DNA from: a virus
Virus record (IMG/VR): IMGVR_UViG_3300034175_000017
Location: 1-64,000 of that record
Strand: one strand, 5' to 3'
DNA length: 64,000 nucleotides
How positions within the stretch are numbered: position 1 is the first letter of the stretch; each line of letters begins with the position of its first letter. Shown piece after piece: positions 1 to 48,107 of the stretch. The position numbers were made by a program, and so were the translations under genes. The notes beneath the pieces were generated by a model. The model searched no databases. It saw only the letters and a program-made list of their open reading frames with translations, and was not told the origin of the DNA.

Positions 1-390
1 AGCAGTGCAAGCGTAGTGGATGCCCTTACCCTCGAAAGGGATCGCCCAATCAGGGCGATTGTAATGAGCACCGCACGCCAGAATGAGCGAACGAGTTGAG
101 AGCCGAGTGCCGCAGTCGAGGTGAACCTCAAAACCGTCACGCAGCCGATCAACCGTGCCCTCATGGATCATTGCGCCGAACTTCTTGGCTTGCTTGCAGG
201 CACGCTCGGTCAAGTTGGGACCGCTGATGCCGTCAGGAAAGCCAAGGAAGTTCTCGATGCGAGAGGAAGTGCCAGCCTGCCCGCCAATGTGGTTGGCAAT
301 GAGAAGCGTTTCGAGGCCCTCACAGGCGGCGTTCACTGCGGCAGACAGGCCCGCAGGCCCGCCGCCGATAATCACTACGTCGTATGGCAT
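1..390 (-). CDS. Thioredoxin-reductase-like FAD-dependent oxidoreductase, N-terminal part (3' end outside window)
   Basis: I translated this reading frame directly; it has no stop inside the window and runs off base 1, so only the first 130 residues are visible. It opens with a dinucleotide-binding glycine motif (VVIIGGGPAGLSAA), followed by GGQAG and the stretch RIENFLGFPDGISG, which together are characteristic of the thioredoxin-reductase family of flavoproteins. Such enzymes pass electrons from NADPH through FAD to a disulfide. Where canonical thioredoxin reductase has YCATC, this protein reads HYACTA, so the usual CxxC pair is not present in the visible part. The ATG overlaps the stop of the upstream CPGC gene (TGATG), implying coupled translation. 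It could be another member of the pyridine-nucleotide disulfide oxidoreductase class. Confidence 0.85.
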   Translation of the reverse strand, partial: MPYDVVIIGGGPAGLSAAVNAACEGLETLLIANHIGGQAGTSSRIENFLGFPDGISGPNLTERACKQAKKFGAMIHEGTVDRLRDGFEVHLDCGTRLSTRSLILACGAHYNRPDWAIPFEGKGIHYACTA

Positions 391-743
391 CACGCCTCCT
401 CAATGTCGCAGGGGTCCAGAAGGACGGTGATTTCTTCGGTCAAGCCCATTTCAGGGTTCTTGAGTAGAAGGTCGAACGCATTCCGCATCGAGCGGGCGAG
501 TTCGGTGCGGGACTGATTGTTGGCGTCAGCGAGGGTCAACATCATGTTGAACCCTGCGACCATGTAACAGCCGGGGCACAGGTCCTGATCGACACGCTGT
601 GCAGGGGTGCGCTCCCCCTGATACTCGTCACGCATCCGACGCTCAAGGTGCTCGGCAATGCGAACACCCATGACGGCACGCTGGCCGTCGTCAATGTGGA
701 TGAGTTGGGGCTTGCCACCGTAAACGCGGGTATCGGCAATCAT
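390..743 (-). CDS. Small protein with CPGC motif, possible redox partner
   Basis: A 117-residue soluble protein of unknown family. Cysteines 56 and 59 form a CPGC motif (DLCPGCY), and a third cysteine lies near the C-terminus (DPCDIEEA). The start chosen is the ATG preceded by AGAGAGG at good spacing; a longer GTG-started form is possible. It ends exactly where the flavoprotein gene begins, in a TGATG overlap, so the two are cotranslated. CxxC pairs occur in thioredoxin-like redox proteins and in metal-binding proteins; the pairing with a thioredoxin-reductase-like enzyme makes a redox role attractive, but that is inference. No thioredoxin fold signature such as WCGPC is present. Confidence 0.75.
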   Translation of the reverse strand: MIADTRVYGGKPQLIHIDDGQRAVMGVRIAEHLERRMRDEYQGERTPAQRVDQDLCPGCYMVAGFNMMLTLADANNQSRTELARSMRNAFDLLLKNPEMGLTEEITVLLDPCDIEEA

Positions 744-812
744 TGGGATATTCCTCTCTTGGGTTTGCACAACGTAGTGCGAAAGGTTGATCTGAACAGG
801 GTGAAAGGTGGA

Positions 813-827
813 GATTACTTAGTATGT
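813..827. promoter_or_regulatory. Copy D of near-palindromic AGTA motif
   Basis: GATTACTTAGTATGT lies between two minus-strand genes and touches the stop codon of the upstream one. It is the weakest copy of the TATTACTNAGTAWTA-like motif found at five other positions in the window. Confidence 0.3.
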
Positions 828-1009
828 TAGAAAAAGCCCTCCCCAATGACGTATGCCGTTCCCAAAAGAATGACGGCAACGATGCCCACCAACACGCCGG
901 GGTGGACAAGTGGGAGAACGAACGCAAAGAACGTGCTGACCGCTACGCCGATCAGTCCGATCACGAACAGCACGACTAGGCCGAGAAGTATGGCAAGAAT
1001 GGTTTTCAT
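827..1009 (-). CDS. Small membrane protein (60 aa)
   Basis: Sixty residues, almost entirely hydrophobic, with two predicted membrane segments (about residues 3-29 and 33-55: ILAILLGLVVLFVIGLIGVA, then VLVGIVAVILLGTAYVIG). The ATG overlaps the stop of the upstream zinc-ribbon gene in an ATGA junction, which fixes the start; a longer in-frame extension upstream would overlap that gene fully and is rejected. No family recognised. Small hydrophobic early phage proteins often act on the host envelope, but nothing in the sequence shows that here. Confidence 0.75.
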   Translation of the reverse strand: MKTILAILLGLVVLFVIGLIGVAVSTFFAFVLPLVHPGVLVGIVAVILLGTAYVIGEGFF

Positions 1010-1248
1010 CCGAAAGCCCTCATGAGTGCTGCGAAAATGAGGTCGCGCTCCTCTTGCCGATTGGCAGTGAACTTCATACGCTGCTCGTCGCCGCAGCGGG
1101 GGCACTGGTGGCCCTCGTCAAACGTCGCATCGCTCTGCTGCACGTCGTCCTCGTTGTGCTTCCACACAGTGCCGCAGGAGTTGCACTTGTGCTTGTGCTC
1201 ATTGTGTCCAACGCGATGGTCTGCGTCACACAGTTGGTTCACGCTCAT
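1006..1248 (-). CDS. Zinc-ribbon protein (80 aa)
   Basis: Eighty residues with two CxxC knuckles (KCNSCG near residue 22 and QCPRCG near residue 49) about 27 residues apart, plus several histidines at the N-terminus (HRVGHNEHKHK). This is the pattern of a four-cysteine zinc ribbon, a fold used for nucleic-acid or protein binding. A Shine-Dalgarno AGGAA precedes the ATG. It overlaps the small membrane gene downstream by four bases. The binding partner cannot be told from sequence. Confidence 0.8.
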   Translation of the reverse strand: MSVNQLCDADHRVGHNEHKHKCNSCGTVWKHNEDDVQQSDATFDEGHQCPRCGDEQRMKFTANRQEERDLIFAALMRAFG

Positions 1249-1260
1249 TGGAATGTTCCT

Positions 1261-1398
1261 TTACTTTAGGAGGGCGTTGTCGCGGACATACACGGTCGCA
1301 CCGGGCAGTCCTTCGGTGATGACGGCCAAGGCACGCTTAGCCTTCAATTCTGCCTGCACAGGGCGGGCGCGGAGGTTGGGGACGTGGGACTTGAACAT
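1261..1398 (-). CDS. Very small protein of unknown function (45 aa)
   Basis: A 45-residue reading frame beginning MFKSHVPNLRARPVQ and ending VYVRDNALLK. It sits one base after the stop of the upstream gene and 12 bases before the downstream start, filling the only space between them, which argues that it is real. The protein is basic at the N-terminus with an alternating hydrophobic C-terminal part. No family recognised. Weak Shine-Dalgarno, so translation probably depends on coupling to the upstream gene. Confidence 0.6.
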   Translation of the reverse strand: MFKSHVPNLRARPVQAELKAKRALAVITEGLPGATVYVRDNALLK

Positions 1399-1399
1399 A

Positions 1400-1606
1400 T
1401 TATTTCGGCTCCAGAGTTACGAAGTCCCTGCCATATCGAATGACAAGGCGTTCGCCGTTCCAATTTCGGACGCGACGGATTTCGCGCCCGAGTTGTGTGT
1501 TGTCGTGAACCATGCGGATCACCATGTCGTAGGCAATCAGCTTGGCCTTATCGAGCGTGTTGCGGTTGACCTCACGACCGAGAAGCGTCTCCGTTAGACG
1601 GAACAT
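1400..1606 (-). CDS. Hypothetical protein (68 aa)
   Basis: Sixty-eight residues starting MFRLTETLLGREVNRN, with a basic, charged second half (REIRRVRNWNGERLVIRYGRD). The start was chosen because AAGGAG lies seven bases upstream of this ATG; a longer frame extending into the upstream gene is a shadow. Its 5' end overlaps the upstream gene by 35 bases. The helix-then-strand pattern is like many small phage proteins of unknown function; no motif was recognised. Confidence 0.75.
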   Translation of the reverse strand: MFRLTETLLGREVNRNTLDKAKLIAYDMVIRMVHDNTQLGREIRRVRNWNGERLVIRYGRDFVTLEPK

Positions 1607-1907
1607 TGAACAACTCCTTGATTTTAAGGAAGCCCTCGCGCTGCTCAATCTTGGCACGGTAGCGTTCCATGCGTCGAACAGCGTGGAAGATGCGAAGGGC
1701 ATCGAACACGCCAAGCATAATCTTGGGCTTGCCTTGCCACTGTCGGCCAAACTCGACGTATGGTTCCTGTCGTGCTTTGCCGGTGAACACCGTGATGTGT
1801 GGCTCGATGTTCTCCTTCGTGTAGAAGTAGGGCCTGTCGCCCGTCCACTTTTCGGGTTCGTGTCGCAGCATGGCGACGACGATGCTAATCGCTGGGTTGA
1901 ATATCAT
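1572..1907 (-). CDS. Hypothetical protein (111 aa)
   Basis: A 111-residue soluble protein, rich in aromatic and charged residues (WTGDRPYFYTKENIEPH; RRMERYRAKIEQREGFLKIK). The C-terminal third looks helical and possibly coiled. It starts 22 bases inside the end of the upstream gene and overlaps the next gene by 35 bases, so it belongs to the same operon. No catalytic motif or known family was recognised. Confidence 0.75.
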   Translation of the reverse strand: MIFNPAISIVVAMLRHEPEKWTGDRPYFYTKENIEPHITVFTGKARQEPYVEFGRQWQGKPKIMLGVFDALRIFHAVRRMERYRAKIEQREGFLKIKELFNVPSNGDASRS

Positions 1908-2313
1908 AAAGGGACCTCACGATTTTGACCATGTAGTCGATTGCTGCATCGAGCGTGAGAGCAGGGGCTTCGATCAGCCACGCATATTGCCACGCTTCGT
2001 CGGGCATAACAGGTGGCCAGATGGTTGCCTTGAACGCTGGCACACCGCCGACTCTTCCACGCTTGGCGATACCGATTTCTTCCCACGTTGGACGGCTTGG
2101 AACGGGGATATAGCTCTCCGTTTGGCCGTCCCACGTCCGACGAAAGCCGGGGCGTATTACTGCACTTCTCCATGCATTTGACTTGCCGCTAAGGGCGTTG
2201 GTGAAGTGAATTAGGTAAGTGTCCTTACCAATTACTTCGTGGGACCTGATGAATACTTGCCGCTCTTGGTAGTATCCATAAGGGATGAGGCCACTTTCAG
2301 GTAGTGTGAGCAT
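1885..2313 (-). CDS. Hypothetical protein (142 aa)
   Basis: A 142-residue protein with a beta-rich N-terminal part (YGYYQERQVFIRSHEVIGKD, YLIHFTNAL) and a tryptophan-rich middle (DEAWQYAWLIEAP). A strong GGGAGAAG precedes the ATG. It overlaps its neighbours at both ends (17 bases upstream, 23 downstream). No family recognised. Confidence 0.75.
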   Translation of the reverse strand: MLTLPESGLIPYGYYQERQVFIRSHEVIGKDTYLIHFTNALSGKSNAWRSAVIRPGFRRTWDGQTESYIPVPSRPTWEEIGIAKRGRVGGVPAFKATIWPPVMPDEAWQYAWLIEAPALTLDAAIDYMVKIVRSLYDIQPSD

Positions 2314-2491
2314 CGACTTCTCCCGATAAACGCACCACCACGCACTGCGGATTGGGGATGCGGAGCAGATCGCCGGGGTGCATCAGTGCAAGCCGAGCGA
2401 ACGTTGGTGCCCAATCCCATGCAGGAGCAATTGCTTGCGCTGCACGGGTGGCGTTGTCGTAGATGTGGCCGTTGATGAGATACTTACGCAT
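2297..2491 (-). CDS. Hypothetical protein (64 aa)
   Basis: Sixty-four residues, beginning MRKYLINGHIYDNATRAAQ. The ATG lies inside the last codons of the upstream 97-residue gene, and the end overlaps the next gene by 17 bases. The middle (WAPTFARLALMHPGDLLRIP) could form a helix-turn. No recognised family. Confidence 0.7.
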   Translation of the reverse strand: MRKYLINGHIYDNATRAAQAIAPAWDWAPTFARLALMHPGDLLRIPNPQCVVVRLSGEVDAHTT

Positions 2492-2777
2492 CTTCGGAGA
2501 CCTTGATACCTTTCAGCATGTTGATGAAGTTTTGGTCGGCCTTGCCTTCGTCCTTGACGAGGCGTTGGAAGTTCTTCGCAGCCCACGAAGCGCGAGGCTT
2601 GTCAGGCCGACCCGGATACTCGGCCAGATAGAACACGGTCTGGCCCATGATGGTGTCGCTGCCGATCACCGTGACGATTTCGCCGTAGTTGGGCGCGGCG
2701 TAGGAGACGGGCTTGAGGTTGTAGACGTTGACCCATGCACCCTTCTTGATGCACACCATTTTCTGTTCACTTGCCAT
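2484..2777 (-). CDS. Hypothetical SH3-like protein (97 aa)
   Basis: Ninety-seven residues. The first 60 alternate short hydrophobic strands with glycine and proline turns (CIKKGAWVNVYNL, YGEIVTVIGSD, VFYLAEYPGRP), a pattern seen in SH3-like small barrels, followed by a charged helical tail (KNFQRLVKDEGKADQNF). The fold suggestion is by eye only. Translationally coupled to both neighbours. Function unknown. Confidence 0.75.
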   Translation of the reverse strand: MASEQKMVCIKKGAWVNVYNLKPVSYAAPNYGEIVTVIGSDTIMGQTVFYLAEYPGRPDKPRASWAAKNFQRLVKDEGKADQNFINMLKGIKVSEDA

Positions 2778-3156
2778 TGTCGAGCACCTCCGTGTTCAGG
2801 CCATAAGCATTCGCAATGCTACGAGCGCCGGGGATGAGCCGAGTGAGGAAGTCCTCGGGCACGTTTGCGGCGTTGTCGTGAGCGTGCTGGATGCGCTTAG
2901 CCAGTTCCAGTTCGAGACCTTCGGAAGGTAGGCCAGCCGCTTCCCGAAGTTCCTTGTTAAAGTCGCTGGCGAAGCCGCCAACAAGCAGGTTCTCGAACTC
3001 GGGGCGGTAGAGTTCGTCAGGGATAAGCTGCCCGACGCCGCACTTGAGGCCCGTTTCCGTGCGGTAGCTGCACATGCCATTGGCGTTGAGGGCAGGGGCA
3101 CCTTGGGCAATCACACCTGAGACGGCGGTGTCGAAGATTTCTTGAAGTGAGCGCAT
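2767..3156 (-). CDS. Hypothetical protein (129 aa)
   Basis: A soluble protein of about 129 residues, mostly helical, with two cysteines in the first third (NGMCSYRTETGLKCGVG) and an acidic central part. The start at 3156 (MRSLQEIF) is nine bases from an AAGGG ribosome site; an alternative ATG at 3165 overlaps the upstream stop in an ATGA junction and adds three residues. I recall similar phage proteins annotated only as hypothetical. Function unknown. Confidence 0.7.
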   Translation of the reverse strand: MRSLQEIFDTAVSGVIAQGAPALNANGMCSYRTETGLKCGVGQLIPDELYRPEFENLLVGGFASDFNKELREAAGLPSEGLELELAKRIQHAHDNAANVPEDFLTRLIPGARSIANAYGLNTEVLDNGK

Positions 3157-3161
3157 GTTGT

Positions 3162-3374
3162 TCATCCCTTGTGGATTGGGCACAAGCAGCCTGCCTGCTT
3201 GAACCGCTTGCGTTGCGAGGCGAAGATCACGCGGGAACGTGCCGTTCCATCGGCATGACCGGGGCGAGCGGCGCGGGCACCCTCAACCGTATCGAAGGTG
3301 CGGGCTAACTCGCCCCACGTTCCATCCGGTTGGAGTGCCATGCCGTCATTTTGGACGACGACGTATAAGCTCAT
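3162..3374 (-). CDS. Hypothetical protein (70 aa)
   Basis: Seventy residues (MSLYVVVQNDG start). The basic C-terminal half (RSRVIFASQRKRFKQAGCLC) carries two cysteines. It begins inside the last 29 bases of the kinase-like gene. A much longer frame runs upstream through that gene, but it is an antisense-like shadow in composition, so the short form is preferred. Function unknown. Confidence 0.6.
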   Translation of the reverse strand: MSLYVVVQNDGMALQPDGTWGELARTFDTVEGARAARPGHADGTARSRVIFASQRKRFKQAGCLCPIHKG

Positions 3375-4374
3375 TGTTCGCTTTCTGGATGAGGTGATTG
3401 TGAGGGCGAAACTTGGGTGGCTTAGAAGGCTTCCGCAAGGTAGCCACGTCACGGAGGAAGACTTCGACGCCCCCGAAGTTCTCCAGAGCATTGCGGCGAG
3501 CAACTTCGCGGTCCATGCGGGCAAGTGCCTGCACTTGGCGAGCGTGTTCAGCAACGCCAAACTCCCGACGAACAGGCACGATAACTTCAGCACCACGCCG
3601 AGCCATTGCGATCATTTCGTCGTGCATGAGGTTAGCGAAGCGGCCAGCCTGCGGCCTGCCCACGAACTCACCGCCAAACCCGACAAGCTCAACGCAAGGG
3701 TTCTCGTCAACGAACGCCTTGCCAAGGTCACGCGCAGTGATGGTATCGCACCATCCCCAACCCGCAGGCTTGGGAGGGCCAAACATCTGTGGGGCGTCCT
3801 TGAGTTGGTCAGAGCCATACCCAAGGCCGTGAAAGCTTGAGCATGGGTCTGTAATGACCAGTTGGTCGCCACGCATCATGCAGTTGCGGTCCGCAACGTC
3901 GTTGAAGTTGCGAGCACCGAACCCACGGATTAGTTCTTGCAGTTCCGGGTAGGGGTGGACGATTGCTCCACGCTTGGCGTCGTAGATTTGGTCAATCAGG
4001 CTGTTGAGTTCGTCACGTCGAGGGTGGTAACGAACCTCTGTGAGTTTTTCGAGCACATAGATCGTGCAGCCGTTAAGCTTGATCTTGGCCCGGATGCGGG
4101 GGGCGAACGGATTTGTGGTGGTCATGCAGTAGTCTGCATAAGCGGCGTAGGCTTCGTCGCCGTTGTTGCAGTCCAGCTTCATCACCCACTTGGAGTTGAT
4201 GGGGTAGACCTTGCTGAAATGGCCCTCACCCAAATAGCTCACGCCGAGCACGTCGCACAACTTCTGCATCCGGGTGCGAAACTCGCCGTTGTAAATGTAG
4301 GAGGTGGCGTTGGGGTCGAAATACTTTGCCGGATTGGCGTAGTAGTCCTTAGCGAGCGAAATAATTTTGGACAC
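3346..4374 (-). CDS. Protein-kinase-like protein (342 aa)
   Basis: Residues about 44-180 show the landmarks of the protein-kinase fold in order: a glycine-rich loop (YLGEGHFSKVY, residues 47-57), a lysine in a VMKL context (Lys66), an acidic residue at 74, a hinge-like IYVLEKL, a catalytic-loop D-x4-N (FNDVADRNCMM, Asp159 and Asn164) and a metal-binding aspartate in VITDP (Asp176). This matches the reduced kinase domains of phage proteins such as T7 gp0.7, which phosphorylate host targets early in infection. The C-terminal 160 residues are basic and unrecognised. The protein is in the middle of the small early-type operon and overlaps both neighbours. Activity and target are inference; all catalytic residues look intact. 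Confidence 0.75.
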   Translation of the reverse strand: MSKIISLAKDYYANPAKYFDPNATSYIYNGEFRTRMQKLCDVLGVSYLGEGHFSKVYPINSKWVMKLDCNNGDEAYAAYADYCMTTTNPFAPRIRAKIKLNGCTIYVLEKLTEVRYHPRRDELNSLIDQIYDAKRGAIVHPYPELQELIRGFGARNFNDVADRNCMMRGDQLVITDPCSSFHGLGYGSDQLKDAPQMFGPPKPAGWGWCDTITARDLGKAFVDENPCVELVGFGGEFVGRPQAGRFANLMHDEMIAMARRGAEVIVPVRREFGVAEHARQVQALARMDREVARRNALENFGGVEVFLRDVATLRKPSKPPKFRPHNHLIQKANNELIRRRPK

Positions 4375-4549
4375 GGAGAATCTCCAGCGATTGAGGCTCA
4401 GGGTCAGTGACTATGGGAGCGAAGAAGCATTCCGAGCGGCGCGGCTTGCGGCCAAGCTTGCCCGATAAGTGCTCCACGGCCTCCAGTTGGGAGAGGCCGT
4501 AGCCGGTGGTCCCGCAGGGGGTGGTGACTTGGTAGGCGACAATACGCAT
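4349..4549 (-). CDS. Hypothetical protein (66 aa)
   Basis: Sixty-six residues beginning MRIVAYQVTTPCG, preceded by GGAGAG at good spacing. The first 20 residues suggest two short strands; the rest is charged (KLGRKPRRSECFF). It overlaps the kinase-like gene by 26 bases. A second frame (4411-4629) covers most of the same DNA; I prefer this one because of its ribosome site. Function unknown. Confidence 0.65.
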   Translation of the reverse strand: MRIVAYQVTTPCGTTGYGLSQLEAVEHLSGKLGRKPRRSECFFAPIVTDPEPQSLEILRVQNYFAR

Positions 4550-4629
4550 ATCGACTCTCCGATGGAAAGGGCACGCCGTGCAGCGATTGCGACGGCTGCG
4601 TGGGGGTATGTGATGTTGGTGTATTTCAC
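4411..4629 (-). CDS. Possible overlapping small gene, GTG start
   Basis: A GTG at 4629 overlaps the stop of the upstream membrane gene in a GTGA junction and opens a 72-residue frame whose first 30 residues (YPHAAVAIAARRALSIGE) look like a real helix. After position 4549 it lies entirely inside the other small gene in a different frame and becomes low-complexity (proline, serine, alanine). It fills an otherwise empty 77-base gap. It may be real, or only its start may be. Confidence 0.3.
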   Translation of the reverse strand: MKYTNITYPHAAVAIAARRALSIGESICVLSPTKSPPPAGPPATASPNWRPWSTYRASLAASRAARNASSLP

Positions 4630-4916
4630 CCAAGCTTGCTTTCGTAATAGATGCCGACCAGCACCGAGATTGCGATCAGGGCGGTGAAGCCCATGAATGC
4701 GAACCCGAAGAAGATGGTCGTCCACACCGAGTTGAACAGGAAGGCGAGTGCGAAAAACACAGCGCAGATCGCGGCCACGAACGAGAACACGAATGCCAGT
4801 TCACCGGCAGTGCGAACGCGTCGCGCATTCCGATAGTCGGCCTTGTCGTCATTGAGCATGGCCAAGCTGTTGTAGTGCTCCTCATTGAGGCGGCGGCGAA
4901 GGTCTTTGCGGTCCAT
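4626..4916 (-). CDS. Small membrane protein (96 aa)
   Basis: Ninety-six residues: a charged cytoplasmic-looking N-terminal third (MDRKDLRRRLNEEHYNS), then two membrane helices (about residues 39-63 and 67-90). The start overlaps the upstream stop (TAATGG), so this ATG is well supported; the long frame upstream is a shadow of the preceding gene. It lies in a run of three consecutive membrane or very small proteins. Function unknown. Confidence 0.75.
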   Translation of the reverse strand: MDRKDLRRRLNEEHYNSLAMLNDDKADYRNARRVRTAGELAFVFSFVAAICAVFFALAFLFNSVWTTIFFGFAFMGFTALIAISVLVGIYYESKLG

Positions 4917-5089
4917 TACTGGTGGTCCTTGATGATGATGGTCAGCATGGAGACGGGCACGCTGACGAGGAAAGCCATGATAAGCGGCATATAGCCATAC
5001 TCGCCAAGCTCGAACGTCATGAAGGAAAGGGCGACCAACGCCACAGCGAGCAGAGTGACCACAATGGTCAGGGCCAGTGCAATTCTCAT
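4916..5089 (-). CDS. Small membrane protein (57 aa)
   Basis: Fifty-seven residues with two hydrophobic helices (IALALTIVVTLLAVALVALS and MPLIMAFLVSVPVSMLTIII) separated by a short acidic loop. The ATG overlaps the upstream stop (ATGA) and its own stop overlaps the next start (TAATG). Probably acts in the inner membrane with its neighbour; no family recognised. Confidence 0.7.
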   Translation of the reverse strand: MRIALALTIVVTLLAVALVALSFMTFELGEYGYMPLIMAFLVSVPVSMLTIIIKDHQ

Positions 5090-5235
5090 TTGATGTTCGC
5101 CTCAATGCGGTTGCGCTCTGCCGCGATTGCCCGAATGGCGTCGGGGCAGATAACGTGGGTGGAGTTCTTGAGCAGATCAGTCAGGGCGAGCACTACGCGC
5201 TGGCAGTCCGCTTTGTCAGACGGGTGCATTGCCAT
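5086..5235 (-). CDS. Very small protein (49 aa)
   Basis: Forty-nine residues (MAMHPSDKADCQRVV start) with two cysteines and a helical C-terminus. A clear GGAGAA precedes the ATG. Coupled to the membrane gene by an ATGA overlap. Function unknown. Confidence 0.65.
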   Translation of the reverse strand: MAMHPSDKADCQRVVLALTDLLKNSTHVICPDAIRAIAAERNRIEANIK

Positions 5236-5392
5236 TGTTGTTCTCCAATGAAAACAGTGGACGAGACCACAGCTTGCAAAGCCGGTAGTTGAGCCGCTAC
5301 CGGACGGCACTTAAACATTTATGCAAAAGCGCGCTTGCGCTGCGGGTTACATTGTCCGTCTCCTTTTGGCCGTCGCACTCGGCTTTGGGGTG
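5236..5392. other. Short noncoding gap with small hairpins
   Basis: About 157 bases between two minus-strand genes. It contains an inverted repeat CCGGTAG/CTACCGG (5282-5303, 8-base loop) and a weaker GCGC stem near 5329-5340. Neither has a clear U-tract. It may be a leader or partial terminator; no gene was seen. Confidence 0.35.
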
Positions 5393-5602
5393 TTAGCCCC
5401 GCACGCACCAACGGTCGTCGGTCATGCGGAGAACTTCTTTCCATTCGCCATTGGGTAGGGCGATGTCGGAAATCTTGGAGGTGACTTGGACGCAGCCCAA
5501 GCGTTGGGATTCGGTGGGGAGCAGTTCTGAACCCATCCAAAAGAGGCCAGCCAGCAGTGTGGCATACATGGAGAGGGCGAGTAGGATGTTGGGGTAGCGC
5601 AT
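5393..5602 (-). CDS. Membrane-anchored small protein (69 aa)
   Basis: Sixty-nine residues: an N-terminal hydrophobic segment (YPNILLALSMYATLLAGLFW, residues 3-22) that could be a signal anchor, then about 45 polar residues with two cysteines (RLGCVQV, DDRWCVRG). The ATG has an AAGGAG ribosome site and is the first gene after the long AT-rich leader at 5603-5839, so it is probably the head of an operon. Function unknown. Confidence 0.7.
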   Translation of the reverse strand: MRYPNILLALSMYATLLAGLFWMGSELLPTESQRLGCVQVTSKISDIALPNGEWKEVLRMTDDRWCVRG

Positions 5603-5618
5603 GGGATAACTCCTTGAG

Positions 5619-5653
5619 TTAAGTGACCAGCGCGGGCAGGGCTGGTCACTTAA
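5619..5653. repeat. Perfect 13-bp inverted repeat in leader
   Basis: TTAAGTGACCAGC (5619-5631) and GCTGGTCACTTAA (5641-5653) form a perfect stem with a nine-base loop. It ends one to two bases from the AAGGAG ribosome site of the minus-strand gene starting at 5602, so in the transcript the hairpin would sit against the ribosome site. It could act as an operator, an RNA-binding-protein site or a stability element. Confidence 0.6.
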
Positions 5654-5703
5654 CACAAGTTAGTCCGAACCTCTCCAAAAGTTACAGACTGTTCATCCTA
5701 TAT

Positions 5704-5768
5704 ATACTCTCTTTTCTTATTATTACTTAGTATAAGAAGAAAAACAGATAAATGATAGAGAGAGTATA
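5704..5768. promoter_or_regulatory. AT-rich palindromic region with motif copy A
   Basis: A strongly AT-rich stretch in the 237-base gap between minus-strand genes. The outer arms ATACTCTCT and AGAGAGTAT are inverted repeats. Inside is TTTTCTTAT followed by TATTACTTAGTATAA (5712-5735), shared with copies at 17605-17628 (opposite strand) and 48062-48084. On the minus strand TATACT could serve as a -10 box for the operon starting at 5602. A role as promoter/operator is inference. Confidence 0.5.
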
Positions 5769-5839
5769 AAGACTCTTTTTTCGACCGAACCCATATTTGG
5801 AGGTGGCTGTTTTTCCCAAGAGTTGGCGTAATTTCCCAA

Positions 5840-6331
5840 CTATAGGGCTAATGCACCAAACGCAGCGGCCTGAACCGAGCGATTGCGGCGTCCAGCGGCA
5901 TTTGTGAGGCGGTTGACTTGTCCGTGCGACAGGCCCGTTAGTTTGGCGATATCCGATTGCTTCATCCCACGCTTCCGTAGCTCTAGGAGTGACATTCGGA
6001 CTACATCAGGCACCTTGCCTTTGGTCCACCCCCCATCCTTCATGGCCGCAAGTATGCCTAAGCCCTGATCTAGGCCCATGCACTCCACATTCCTGCGAAT
6101 AGGCTCGCTTGCCTCATCGCCTACATGGTCCCGCAGAAACAGATAGGCCCGGATTGTGGCGGGGGCCTTCCAATGCAGGATGTATCGGGCATGATCTAGC
6201 CCGATGCTCTCCACAAAGGCGACGAGTTCCAGCGCGTCCCACCAATCCAGATGCTTGAACCGGAAATATTGGGCAACGCGCCGGAACTTCTGTGACGCAT
6301 AGCGTTCAGCCGTGGGCAGCAACGCGTCCAT
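5840..6331 (-). CDS. Helix-turn-helix DNA-binding protein (163 aa)
   Basis: The C-terminal third carries a helix-turn-helix of the Cro/ParB type (MKQSDIAKLTGLSHGQVNRL, about residues 120-140) preceded by helical sequence with WW and many arginines. The start is uncertain: ATG at 6331 gives an overlap of 26 bases with the upstream gene like other junctions here, while 6367 and 6385 are also possible. It ends just before the AT-rich palindromic region and is the best candidate in this area for a regulator acting on it, though that is inference. Confidence 0.65.
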   Translation of the reverse strand: MDALLPTAERYASQKFRRVAQYFRFKHLDWWDALELVAFVESIGLDHARYILHWKAPATIRAYLFLRDHVGDEASEPIRRNVECMGLDQGLGILAAMKDGGWTKGKVPDVVRMSLLELRKRGMKQSDIAKLTGLSHGQVNRLTNAAGRRNRSVQAAAFGALAL

Positions 6332-6488
6332 GTGGAACGGCAGGGAGTTTGGCGGGCAGGACGACATGGGGAATGCCTGTAGCATCCTCGGCGTCGTCAG
6401 CCAAGCGTGTGGCGTGGCGATACGTCATTGGGTTCGGGTTCATGGCGAGGGCGCGTTCTGTGTTCCAGACGATGTAGGATTTACGCAT
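6306..6488 (-). CDS. Hypothetical protein (60 aa)
   Basis: Sixty residues starting MRKSYIVWNTERALAMN, with AAGAGGAA upstream of the ATG and an eight-base overlap with the preceding gene. Proline- and histidine-rich C-terminus. No recognised family. Confidence 0.6.
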   Translation of the reverse strand: MRKSYIVWNTERALAMNPNPMTYRHATRLADDAEDATGIPHVVLPAKLPAVPHGRVAAHG

Positions 6489-6765
6489 TTCGATATTCCT
6501 CTTTCTTGAGCATGGAGATAGTCGCACGGCCAATGGCCATGACTTGGTTCACCTCACGCCTTTGCTGAACCATCTTGGGACAAGGTGGCTTTGGCTTGGG
6601 CGCAACTGTGATCTTGGGGCGAAGCTTGAGAAGCTTCTTAACGTGGCCCTTACTCGGAGGCGTGTAGGTCCGCGCCTTGTCGAAACATTCCGCCGCATAT
6701 TGCGTATCGCCGCGAGCGTTATCGCGCAGATACGGCCAGACGGCATAAATCTCGGACGTGGACAT
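6481..6765 (-). CDS. Hypothetical protein (94 aa)
   Basis: Ninety-four residues. Residues 1-30 are aromatic and acidic; the middle is basic and proline-rich (KLLKLRPKITVAPKPKPP); the end is helical. GGAG precedes the ATG. Two copies of the CTTAAACTGTTTAAG palindrome lie upstream of its start, so its operon may be controlled there. Function unknown. Confidence 0.7.
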   Translation of the reverse strand: MSTSEIYAVWPYLRDNARGDTQYAAECFDKARTYTPPSKGHVKKLLKLRPKITVAPKPKPPCPKMVQQRREVNQVMAIGRATISMLKKEEYRNA

Positions 6766-6822
6766 TTGGGAAACTCCGCAAAGCCGGAAAAATCCGGGCG
6801 ACCCCTACAAACTGAACAAAAC

Positions 6823-6841
6823 GACTTAAACTGTTTAAGTC
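6823..6841. repeat. Palindrome copy 1 (candidate operator)
   Basis: GACTTAAACTGTTTAAGTC is a perfect 19-base palindrome about a central T. It lies 58 bases upstream of the minus-strand gene starting at 6765. An identical copy is at 7685-7703 and a 15-base core copy at 6932-6946. Confidence 0.65.
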
Positions 6842-6901
6842 TGGCGATGAAGATGCACCACGCGCAGTTGCGCTCATGCACCTACATGGCAAGACTTCTC
6901 A

Positions 6902-6923
6902 CCCCCTGCCAGACGGCAGGGGG
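6902..6923 (-). terminator. Hairpin downstream of the 233-aa gene
   Basis: CCCCCTGCC (6902-6910) and GGCAGGGGG (6915-6923) form a nine-base GC-rich stem with a four-base loop, 26 bases after the stop of the minus-strand gene at 6949. There is no U-tract on either side, so termination may be weak or factor-dependent. Confidence 0.5.
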
Positions 6924-6931
6924 TGGAAGGG

Positions 6932-6946
6932 CTTAAACTGTTTAAG
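6932..6946. repeat. Palindrome copy 2 (candidate operator)
   Basis: CTTAAACTGTTTAAG, the 15-base core of the palindrome found at 6823 and 7685. It lies between the stop of the 233-residue gene and the hairpin at 6902-6923. Confidence 0.6.
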
Positions 6947-6948
6947 TG

Positions 6949-7650
6949 TTAGGCGGCGATTGCTTCCACTTCGGGCTGTGCGGTGACTTCCACGTCACTG
7001 TTTACCGCTTCCACTAGTAGGGCGATTGCATCGTGCGCCGCTTCCCGCTCCTCAAGAGGGGCGGCACGATAGGCGGCAAGTAGGGCTTCCGCCATGCTGG
7101 CAAGGCTAGGGGCTTCCCCTTCCACTGGTGGAACAGGGTTGGCGTTGGCGTTGGCTTCCCCTTCCGAAGCGTCCGCTTGTGCCTTGGCAGCTTCCAATTC
7201 AGCGGCCTTCTTTGCCGCCTTCTTGGCGTCCGCTTCCGCCTTGCGGAAGCCGTTGGCAAGATAATGGATTGAGGACAATCCAGCGAGGACTTGATCCCGC
7301 TGTTCCTCGCTTAGCGTGCTCCACTTTTCAGCGACAAGGCGAGCATTGGAAAAGTAAACTTCCAACCGGCCTTTGGCCTTCTTGCCGTTGTCGCTTGTGC
7401 CTAGCGTCTGCCAACCCGCCGCCACCTTGCTATCGCCGATTAGAGCATCAAGGTTGGCGTTGTCCCGATATACAGCCCGGAACAGTGACGTTCCCCAAGA
7501 CTTAGCCGTGTCGCCAATGGCAGCTTCCGCCTTAACAGTCTGTTCCACGATGGAAGCGGCACTTGCGAGCATTAGCGAACGGCTATCCAGTGCTTCCGTA
7601 TCAAGCACGATTGCGGAGTCGTTGGCGTTGTCGATGATAACTTGCGTCAT
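6949..7650 (-). CDS. Hypothetical protein with low-complexity tail (233 aa)
   Basis: A 233-residue soluble protein. Residues 1-140 are a mixed helical domain (SWGTSLFRAVYRDNA; WSTLSEEQRDQVLAGLSSIH). Residues 140-185 are an alanine-, lysine- and glutamate-rich linker, and the rest is an acidic helical tail. AGGGA precedes the ATG. It is isolated by noncoding DNA on both sides and flanked by palindromes at 6932 and 7685, so it is probably an individually regulated transcript. No family recognised. Confidence 0.75.
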   Translation of the reverse strand: MTQVIIDNANDSAIVLDTEALDSRSLMLASAASIVEQTVKAEAAIGDTAKSWGTSLFRAVYRDNANLDALIGDSKVAAGWQTLGTSDNGKKAKGRLEVYFSNARLVAEKWSTLSEEQRDQVLAGLSSIHYLANGFRKAEADAKKAAKKAAELEAAKAQADASEGEANANANPVPPVEGEAPSLASMAEALLAAYRAAPLEEREAAHDAIALLVEAVNSDVEVTAQPEVEAIAA

Positions 7651-7684
7651 TGGATAATTCCCTATGGGATAGTGTGGAAGGAAA

Positions 7685-7703
7685 GACTTAAACTGTTTAA
7701 GTC
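7685..7703. repeat. Palindrome copy 3 (candidate operator)
   Basis: GACTTAAACTGTTTAAGTC, identical over 19 bases to copy 1, located 35 bases upstream of the start of the 233-residue gene. That distance is typical for a repressor or activator site overlapping a promoter. Confidence 0.65.
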
Positions 7704-8041
7704 TCGTTCCAACTCATGTTGGCGCAATCCTCCCGCCTCCAAAGCAGCCTTGTTAGGGGCGGGGAGGGGGTGCTAGGCCAACGCTCGCACCCTATATAGG
7801 GCACAGCGGCGGCCAACCCGGCGAACCGAGGATTGAAACAACAATGAGAAAGAACGAGTCACCCCCAAATAGTAAAACGTAAGGGAGGCAAAGCGATGGT
7901 CTATCGGGCTAGGGTAAAGACATACCCTAAGCCATAGCTAACCCCTTGAAGGGTAACACAATTTATTCTTTCTTTTCCCCGCCCCTACCTACATTATCCC
8001 TCCTCCCCTCCGAAAATATTTTTCGTCGTTTTACGAAAGAC
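7704..8041. other. Noncoding region with hairpins
   Basis: About 340 bases at the switch from minus- to plus-strand genes. Only trivial reading frames (12-13 codons) exist. It holds a strong hairpin GGCTAGGGTA/TACCCTAAGCC (7907-7933, one bulged A), a CCCTT/AAGGG stem just after it, a pyrimidine-rich run (about 7965-8010) and TTTCGT/ACGAAA. It could contain regulatory RNA or promoters for both directions; I see no gene. Confidence 0.5.
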
Positions 8042-8070
8042 TTGACGTATTCTTTTCTTAAGTCTAGGTT
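8042..8070 (+). promoter_or_regulatory. Possible promoter for the fibre block
   Basis: TTGACG (8042-8047) and TAGGTT (8065-8070) are spaced by 17 bases. Transcription would begin at or just before the ATG at 8077, giving a leaderless or nearly leaderless message. Weak -10 match. Confidence 0.3.
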
Positions 8071-8076
8071 CTGCTG

Positions 8077-8421
8077 ATGAGCACATATTATGACAAGAAC
8101 CGAGAGATTCGCCTCAAGTATTCCAACGAATACTACCTTCGCACCCGTGACACGAGACGCCCCAACCGTCTCCTTACTGAGGCAAAGAAACGAGCCAAGG
8201 CGTCTGGCCTACCCTTTGACCTAACAATAGATGACATCGTGATCCCAACGATGTGCCCGGTCCTAAATAAGCCAATGGTGTCCGCTAGTTTGGATCGCAA
8301 AGACAACGACAAGGGTTACGTCAAAGGGAACGTATTTGTAATTTCTTTGGAAGCCAATCAGAAGAAGCGGGATTCAAGCATTGCTGACCTTGAAGCAATC
8401 CTTGCATATATGAAATCCTAA
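8077..8421 (+). CDS. HNH endonuclease of the endonuclease VII type (114 aa)
   Basis: The C-terminal half has the pattern of phage recombination endonuclease VII-like HNH nucleases: a cysteine in CPVLN, then SLDRKDNDKGYVKGN, then VFVISLEANQKKRD. The N-terminal half is basic (RLLTEAKKRAKASG). Such nucleases cut DNA with a divalent metal; small solitary versions are often mobile homing-type genes inserted in phage genomes. It has one rather than two CxxC-type zinc pairs. It stands first in the fibre block, after a long noncoding gap, which fits an inserted gene. Role uncertain. Confidence 0.75.
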   Translation: MSTYYDKNREIRLKYSNEYYLRTRDTRRPNRLLTEAKKRAKASGLPFDLTIDDIVIPTMCPVLNKPMVSASLDRKDNDKGYVKGNVFVISLEANQKKRDSSIADLEAILAYMKS

Positions 8422-8477
8422 CAACCGCTACATCCATGCCCTTGACAACACGCTGCCCCACAGCCATTCAGCATGGC

Positions 8478-8774
8478 ATGACCCAATCCTTCTCCATCTA
8501 CCAAGGTGACACCTTCCTCGCAGACGCCGTGTATCGGACAGCAGAGGGCGTGCCCATTCCCATCACCCCCGGCCTAATCTCAGCATCCCTCAAGACGCGA
8601 GACGACCGGCACATGCCGATCCAAGTCATACTTGGCGAAGCTGTTGGAACCTATCAGTTGAAAGCAGACACAGAGAACTGGCCCCTCGGTCGAAACTTCT
8701 TGGTTGTCCGATATACGTCTGAGGGTATTGTGCGAACCGCCGAAATGGTTCAGGTAAACGTGGAAGATGCGTAA
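8478..8774 (+). CDS. Small virion-type protein next to fibres (98 aa)
   Basis: About 98 residues from the ATG at 8478 (MTQSFSIYQGDTFLADAVY). The N-terminus, an alternating strand with IYQGDTF, resembles the short beta-sandwich proteins that phages place near tail fibres and baseplates. An earlier ATG at 8436 is possible but gives an unnatural N-terminus. It overlaps the collagen-like gene by one base (TAATG). Exact role unknown; probably structural. Confidence 0.6.
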   Translation: MTQSFSIYQGDTFLADAVYRTAEGVPIPITPGLISASLKTRDDRHMPIQVILGEAVGTYQLKADTENWPLGRNFLVVRYTSEGIVRTAEMVQVNVEDA

Positions 8775-17604: not shown

Positions 17605-17628
17605 TAATAATAAGTAATATAGAGAAAA
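17605..17628 (-). promoter_or_regulatory. Motif copy C in divergent promoter region
   Basis: Read on the minus strand: TTTTCTCTA then TATTACTTATTATTA. It matches copy A (5712) and copy B (48062) in both the TTTTCT element and the 15-base core. It lies in the 127-base gap (17557-17683) between the divergent small-terminase-like and large-terminase genes, an AT- and CT-rich region that must hold promoters for both. Confidence 0.5.
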
Positions 17629-48021: not shown

Positions 48022-48061
48022 GAGATTTCCATAGCAACCACTTCCTATCATTGATATGTTT

Positions 48062-48085
48062 TTTTCTTCTATTACTAAGTATAAT
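48062..48085 (+). promoter_or_regulatory. Motif copy B upstream of the lysis cassette
   Basis: TTTTCTTC then TATTACTAAGTATAA, with a full TATAAT (48080-48085) at its end. It lies 23 bases before the endolysin ATG in the gap between divergent lysis and SbcC-like genes. It could be the lysis promoter; no good -35 box at 17 bases was seen. Confidence 0.5.
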
Positions 48086-48107
48086 ACATAAAAGAAAGCC
48101 TTATAAA

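Follow-up and report, generated by a model that had tools for sequence, protein, structure and literature searches.

A gp0.7-like protein kinase with an orphan C-terminal tail in an 81-kb siphovirus-type phage

In this article, I describe a gene on the minus strand of a viral stretch of 64,000 nucleotides (positions 1 to 64,000 of IMG/VR record IMGVR_UViG_3300034175_000017, the whole of which I call the window) and consider what its product is likely to do. The gene occupies positions 3346-4374, starts with GTG and encodes 342 amino acids (aa), and it is identified as that of a gp0.7-like protein kinase by reading of the open reading frame (ORF), a match to the PHROG families, an hhalign comparison and a profile score set against shuffled sequences. 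With a probability of roughly two in three, I take the product to be a gp0.7-like phage protein kinase, belonging to an 81-kb siphovirus-type phage without a detectable T7-type RNA polymerase, which combines a minimal core with a separate basic tail, is made early and phosphorylates host proteins. The ORF, the homology, the predicted fold, the conserved catalytic residues and the dissimilarity of the tail to that of T7 gp0.7 are directly supported, and the domain family is a known one, but the genomic setting is unusual, the catalytic loop is a variant and the tail is an orphan. This would place a T7-type takeover kinase in a long-tailed phage, away from the T7 lifestyle, and since no T7-type polymerase is detectable beside it, host phosphorylation does not have to go with a switch to a phage polymerase.

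As I picture it, the N-terminal ~180 residues would form a minimal ATP-dependent kinase core comprising the N-lobe, hinge, helices, catalytic loop and metal loop and ending at TDP, and the remaining 165 residues would form a separate, partly basic and helix-rich tail, probably binding nucleic acid or a target protein. The protein would be synthesized early, its gene being one of a cluster of small ones, and would most likely phosphorylate host proteins to the benefit of the phage, either in the gene-expression machinery, like T7 gp0.7, or in a defence system, like the homologue JSS1_004; catalytic activity, early timing, substrates and the role of the tail are what I infer from the results below.

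Homology, predicted fold and truncated architecture

The motifs listed in an initial annotation made from the DNA alone (G-loop, lysine, D-x4-N and VITDP) are all present, and in order, in the 342-aa ORF: the glycine-rich loop GEGHFSKVY at residues 49-57 (4204-4230), the beta-3 lysine Lys66 (4177-4179), the catalytic loop D159-V-A-D-R-N164 (3883-3900) and VI followed by the metal-binding T175-D176-P177, equivalent to DFG (3844-3852), after which 165 residues remain. That annotation had also likened the gene to T7 gp0.7, and the likeness has turned out to be true homology of the kinase domain, more than analogy. A profile search with the protein matched PHROG 15752 (T7 gp0.7 kinase) at an E value of 2.7e-7 and PHROG 2828 at 5.7e-4, and hhalign with a profile of five phage kinases, T7-type or annotated, of which one (SRT7) was itself found by tblastn with the window protein, aligned residues 37-183 with a probability of 98% and an E value of 2.3e-13. 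Furthermore, a family profile was made from 48 relatives, gathered partly with alignments that contained the window sequence, which was itself kept out of the profile; it gave the protein 106 bits, whereas the best of 2000 shuffles reached 5.9 bits and the best of the other 453 window ORFs 7.8 bits (454 ORFs including the kinase, read from stop to stop in six frames with a minimum of 60 aa). At the level of sequence comparison, homology to the T7 gp0.7 kinase domain is confirmed beyond chance.

Close relatives are absent from the viral contigs and genome contigs covered by single-protein search, and the window has no DNA-level similarity to phages. Exact matches to DQ(L/I)VITDP in viral contigs fell in 10 stretches, with one clear relative (L042), one weak one (L043) and otherwise other ORFs, and for that reason this motif alone was rejected as evidence for a kinase. 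The weak relative, at L043 10262-11203 on an 82.7-kb viral contig, is a different kinase-like protein (ADVHLNNIG...VITDPGHA) with a weak match to the gp0.7-like profile.

Searches of viral contigs with alignments yielded 5, 5 and 60 confirmed loci, from which 49 aligned rows were chosen after removal of near-duplicates and further thinning of T7-type rows by hand, and an AlphaFold2 model was built on this alignment. The predicted local distance difference test score (pLDDT) is about 90 across most of residues 31-180 and low over most of the tail, falling under 50 at residues 190-272. Structure prediction, on which the initial annotation had staked its proposal, returned a kinase-like fold in Foldseek, VIA and viral models alike: 49 of the 50 Foldseek rows listed from the PDB are protein kinases or pseudokinases and one is an aminoglycoside kinase (best E value 3.1e-5), the rows listed by VIA structural comparison are kinases or pseudokinases (best Z score 8.6, root-mean-square deviation 3.6, 127 residues), and annotated phage protein kinases are among the best rows from a library of viral structures. 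The VIA lists served as a second look only and do not speak against families that they omit. A Z score near 8 is middling by the tool's own note, and the fold claim therefore rests on sequence and structure together. According to the model, residues 31-180 are a protein-kinase core (the well-predicted block, 31-181, is encoded at 3832-4284).

In the best VIA alignments, the match breaks off around model residues 178-191, where the metal loop lies (TTK 515-669 is an example), and of the C-lobe after the DFG equivalent one can say that the alignments end there and that 190-272 is too low in confidence to judge. T7 gp0.7, when modelled from 35 rows (mean pLDDT 87.6), has the same look, its core ending at TDP 212-214 and followed by a long basic helix at 230-305, and structural alignments of this model likewise stop near 213-222; a search of a PDB copy for a solved structure of T7 gp0.7 returned three noise-level rows and no such structure. 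Across the family, the ORF ends 2-5 residues past TDP in 10 of the 41 rows in which a script placed this motif, the other 8 of the 49 being unmeasured. From the models, the gp0.7-like family seems to consist of truncated kinases, and the ORF ends suggest that they are among the smallest protein kinases. The ~30-kDa N-terminal domain of T7 gp0.7 is described as an active kinase when purified (PMC4858673), and the lack of a recognizable later C-lobe is therefore no argument against activity. How a kinase works without that part is a testable question of more interest than the single gene. A bolder version of this idea is that the family consists of minimal working protein kinases that have just the front half of the fold and end at the metal loop, without an activation segment or the later C-lobe helices, and that the window protein represents a branch with a tyrosine-kinase-like D-x-A-x-R-N loop and a new basic tail, perhaps acting on tyrosine or with dual specificity, and on a new target; I regard this as tentative and would wager against it.

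The phage and the spread of the kinase

The source record is 81,356 bases long and its two ends (window 1-260 and 18098-18356 of L117, the piece holding the other end) agree at 98.5% over 259 bp, and the 81-kb genome is therefore probably close to complete; an FAD oxidoreductase-like gene at window 1-393 runs off the record end. Calling it a siphophage, as the initial annotation did, is borne out by PHROG matches to tape-measure, portal and capsid genes, found along with terminase, and by relatives of its TerL described as siphoviruses. TerL found 77 records at E up to 1e-20 and is 36-43% identical to those of Pseudoalteromonas KB12-38, Caulobacter Seuss, Achromobacter JWF and 2-1, Xylophilus Lumi and Acinetobacter EAb13, the last being reported as an unclassified siphovirus (PMC10508131). 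The idea that the kinase reached the record by misassembly from a T7-like phage is unlikely given the packed gene cluster, the TerL, portal, capsid and tape-measure genes in the record and the matching 259-bp ends.

PF00940, the T7-type single-subunit RNA polymerase, was not detected in the record. A family-alignment search that recovered the kinase in all four phages added as known carriers did not find it in any of 12 named TerL relatives drawn from the 77 records. The kinase therefore looks like an accessory gene, either gained by this lineage or lost by others. The earlier remark that such a kinase is less usual in a siphophage holds within the phage's own clade, but the family extends well beyond T7-like podophages: among 24 records with a gp0.7-like kinase (23 relatives and the window's own, many of them fragments), PF00940 was detected in 7 and not in 17. 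Named phages of 168-175 kb also carry matches, with one in DLP_6, two in RHph_I1_18 and six in Milchi, where two have internal stops. One survey names two characterized phage protein kinases (T7-like phages and 933W) besides CotH- and HipA-type proteins (PMC8008677), and a literature search that covered largely titles and abstract openings, leaving aside subscription journals and bioRxiv, found no gp0.7-like kinase in this siphophage group, no gp0.7 structure and no phage-kinase arrays.

Compared with T7 gp0.7 (PHROG 15752 / 2828), the window protein shares a homologous core of G-loop, Lys, Asp-x4-Asn and TDP, a similar length (342 versus 359 aa) and a layout of core plus basic helical tail, but it differs in the tail itself, in having Ala for the +2 His and in residing in an 81-kb siphovirus-type genome where no PF00940 was detected. 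Its closest named relatives are the putative kinases of Rhizobium Cuernavacavirus phages (RHEph02/03/08/09 and RHph_N37; tblastn 32% over 137-142 query residues), which also have a DQLVLTDP motif and a long tail of their own; these phages, however, are Autographiviridae, keep a DLHxxN loop and, in the case of RHEph02 (G010), have a single-subunit RNA polymerase. As in the window, the gp0.7-like core occurs outside T7-like phages in the Naomviridae DSS3_PM1/VP1 and the large phages RHph_I1_18, Milchi and DLP_6, although their short kinases mostly have a much shorter tail and the annotation of the DSS3_PM1 record includes an RNA polymerase of the phage's own.

Points against and competing explanations

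Several observations weigh against an early, active kinase of the T7 type. The 13 phage records matched by tblastn (10 Rhizobium, 3 Escherichia) show low identity, 28-32% over 40-49% of the protein, and a Pfam search returned no family at E up to 1, so that the Hanks-type Pkinase model is unmatched at this threshold (no HipA profile was among the matches either, and no dedicated HipA comparison was made). Sites in a promoter scan of positions 1-8500 were no commoner than in shuffles, which bears on early expression. For the tail (residues 182-342; 3349-3831), tblastn against phages (E up to 10) returned no more than five rows, all at the level of chance, hhalign against seven T7-type tails gave a probability of 0.1% with five columns aligned, and residues 181-265, just past TDP, have a net charge of -3 and are not basic. 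Lastly, Ala161 in place of the family His might reduce or abolish activity.

Consider this residue more closely. Lys66, Asp159, Asn164, Met166, Asp176 and Pro177 are identical in all 49 rows, and the +2 position of the catalytic loop is His in 45, Ala161 in the window and Lys, Cys or Ser in the other three; the His is thus common in the family and was not treated as defining, and the Arg just before the loop Asn is found in the window row alone. The receptor tyrosine kinases have a D-L-A-A-R-N loop, that is, Ala at +2 and Arg at +4 as in DVADRN, and because of this shared pattern the loop, as far as its residues tell, departs from the family norm without being plainly dead. The best-surviving rival is that the protein is a pseudokinase or binding scaffold, keeping the fold and perhaps nucleotide binding and acting by sequestering a host protein. 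The Ala161 substitution speaks for this, rows that deviate from His making up just 4 of 49 with the window included, as does the absence of a recognizable classical C-lobe past the metal loop. However, Lys66, Asp159, Asn164 and Asp176 are intact here as in every row, the T7 enzyme, whose predicted architecture is truncated in the same way, is active, and the receptor tyrosine kinases have the same two residues, so that I give the scaffold rather low odds, and an active kinase is probably what the gene encodes.

For the tail, the comparison with known phage kinases proposed by the initial annotation gave no similarity to the seven T7-type tails, and the candidate identification of it as the T7 shutoff domain was rejected on that ground; there being no homologous shutoff domain, the protein is filed as a kinase-domain relative and not as a gp0.7 orthologue. 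Of the C-terminal domain of 160 residues in that annotation, the extra residues stand (there are about 165) and the word domain does not, most of them lacking confident structure (pLDDT under 50 at 190-272), and the predicted helices (243-261, 274-311 and 326-339) are mostly of low confidence. The last 77 residues carry a net charge of +10, compared with +11 over the 145 residues of the T7 tail, and the two may be functionally analogous through basic charge. JSS1_004, a gp0.7 homologue, is reported to inactivate DndFGH by phosphorylation and to need both its kinase and its basic C-terminal shutoff domain for overcoming this defence (PMC12345140). By family membership, the window protein shares with it a kinase core and a basic C-terminal region, but phage JSS1 is T7-like and the window tail is unlike T7-type tails; by analogy, a two-part action of kinase and tail like that of JSS1_004 is plausible.

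It is less probable still that the kinase targets phage or virion proteins, or is itself packaged in the virion, instead of serving early host takeover: some members of the family have baseplate-type genes next to them (L012, identified by eye) or are close to genes for terminase and tail sheath (L119), but the window gene belongs to a cluster of small genes without names, and the structural genes are on the other strand. Least probable is a small-molecule kinase of the aminoglycoside/choline-kinase type, with an antibiotic, nucleoside or envelope component as substrate, since, even though the family D-x-H-x-x-N resembles the aminoglycoside phosphotransferase loop, the listed Foldseek rows include one APH(2'')-Ia chain (5iqc) and APH/ChoK-like kinases are reported in cyanophage virions (PMC10665884), the other 49 listed rows are protein kinases or pseudokinases, the window protein lacks the loop His, and T7 gp0.7 and JSS1_004, the nearest relatives with biochemical work behind them, are described as acting on proteins.

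Kinase arrays elsewhere and the gene neighbourhood

In metagenomic phage contigs, gp0.7-like mini-kinases also occur as arrays: seven in a row at L105 1008-5868, four to five on both strands at L106 1735-5320, and five adjacent at L108 2348-5741, with two more ORFs upstream in the same contig (L119 4236-5363), which also has terminase and tail sheath genes. A single 1250-aa ORF at L112 1673-5422 has six kinase domains in a row, some of them without the catalytic His, and the same pattern recurs in L113 and L120 (two contigs in all). Two adjacent kinases of ~250 aa at L012 1863-3379 each end 3-5 residues after TDP and adjoin T4-like baseplate-type genes (named by eye), and adjacent gp0.7-like kinase genes are found in the named phages Milchi and RHph_I1_18 (L131 398-2052 and L123 41-1866). 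Why some phages carry such arrays is, again, of more interest than the single gene.

Returning to the window, a GGAG at 4382-4385, just 5' of the kinase GTG, is a likely ribosome-binding site, and the next gene on the minus strand (3162-3374; 70 aa) overlaps the 3' end of the kinase gene by 29 bases, so the pair is a translationally packed operon. The early-type operon of the initial annotation keeps this packing and its position as its only basis, the promoter scan having shown no excess over shuffles. The tail looks coding, since its GC content by codon position (0.71, 0.45, 0.60) resembles what neighbouring ORFs show (0.67, 0.46, 0.60 for ORF 6949-7650). An AT-rich near-palindromic element with the core ATTATTACTTAGTATAAGAA lies outside the larger ORFs at window 5708-5743 and L117 4272-4305, with weaker copies at window 48055-48095 and 17605-17628; one copy is upstream of the kinase, inside its gene cluster. 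The exact 20-mer of this element occurs once per piece (window and L117) and not at all in shuffles, and the element is possibly a phage operator or promoter.
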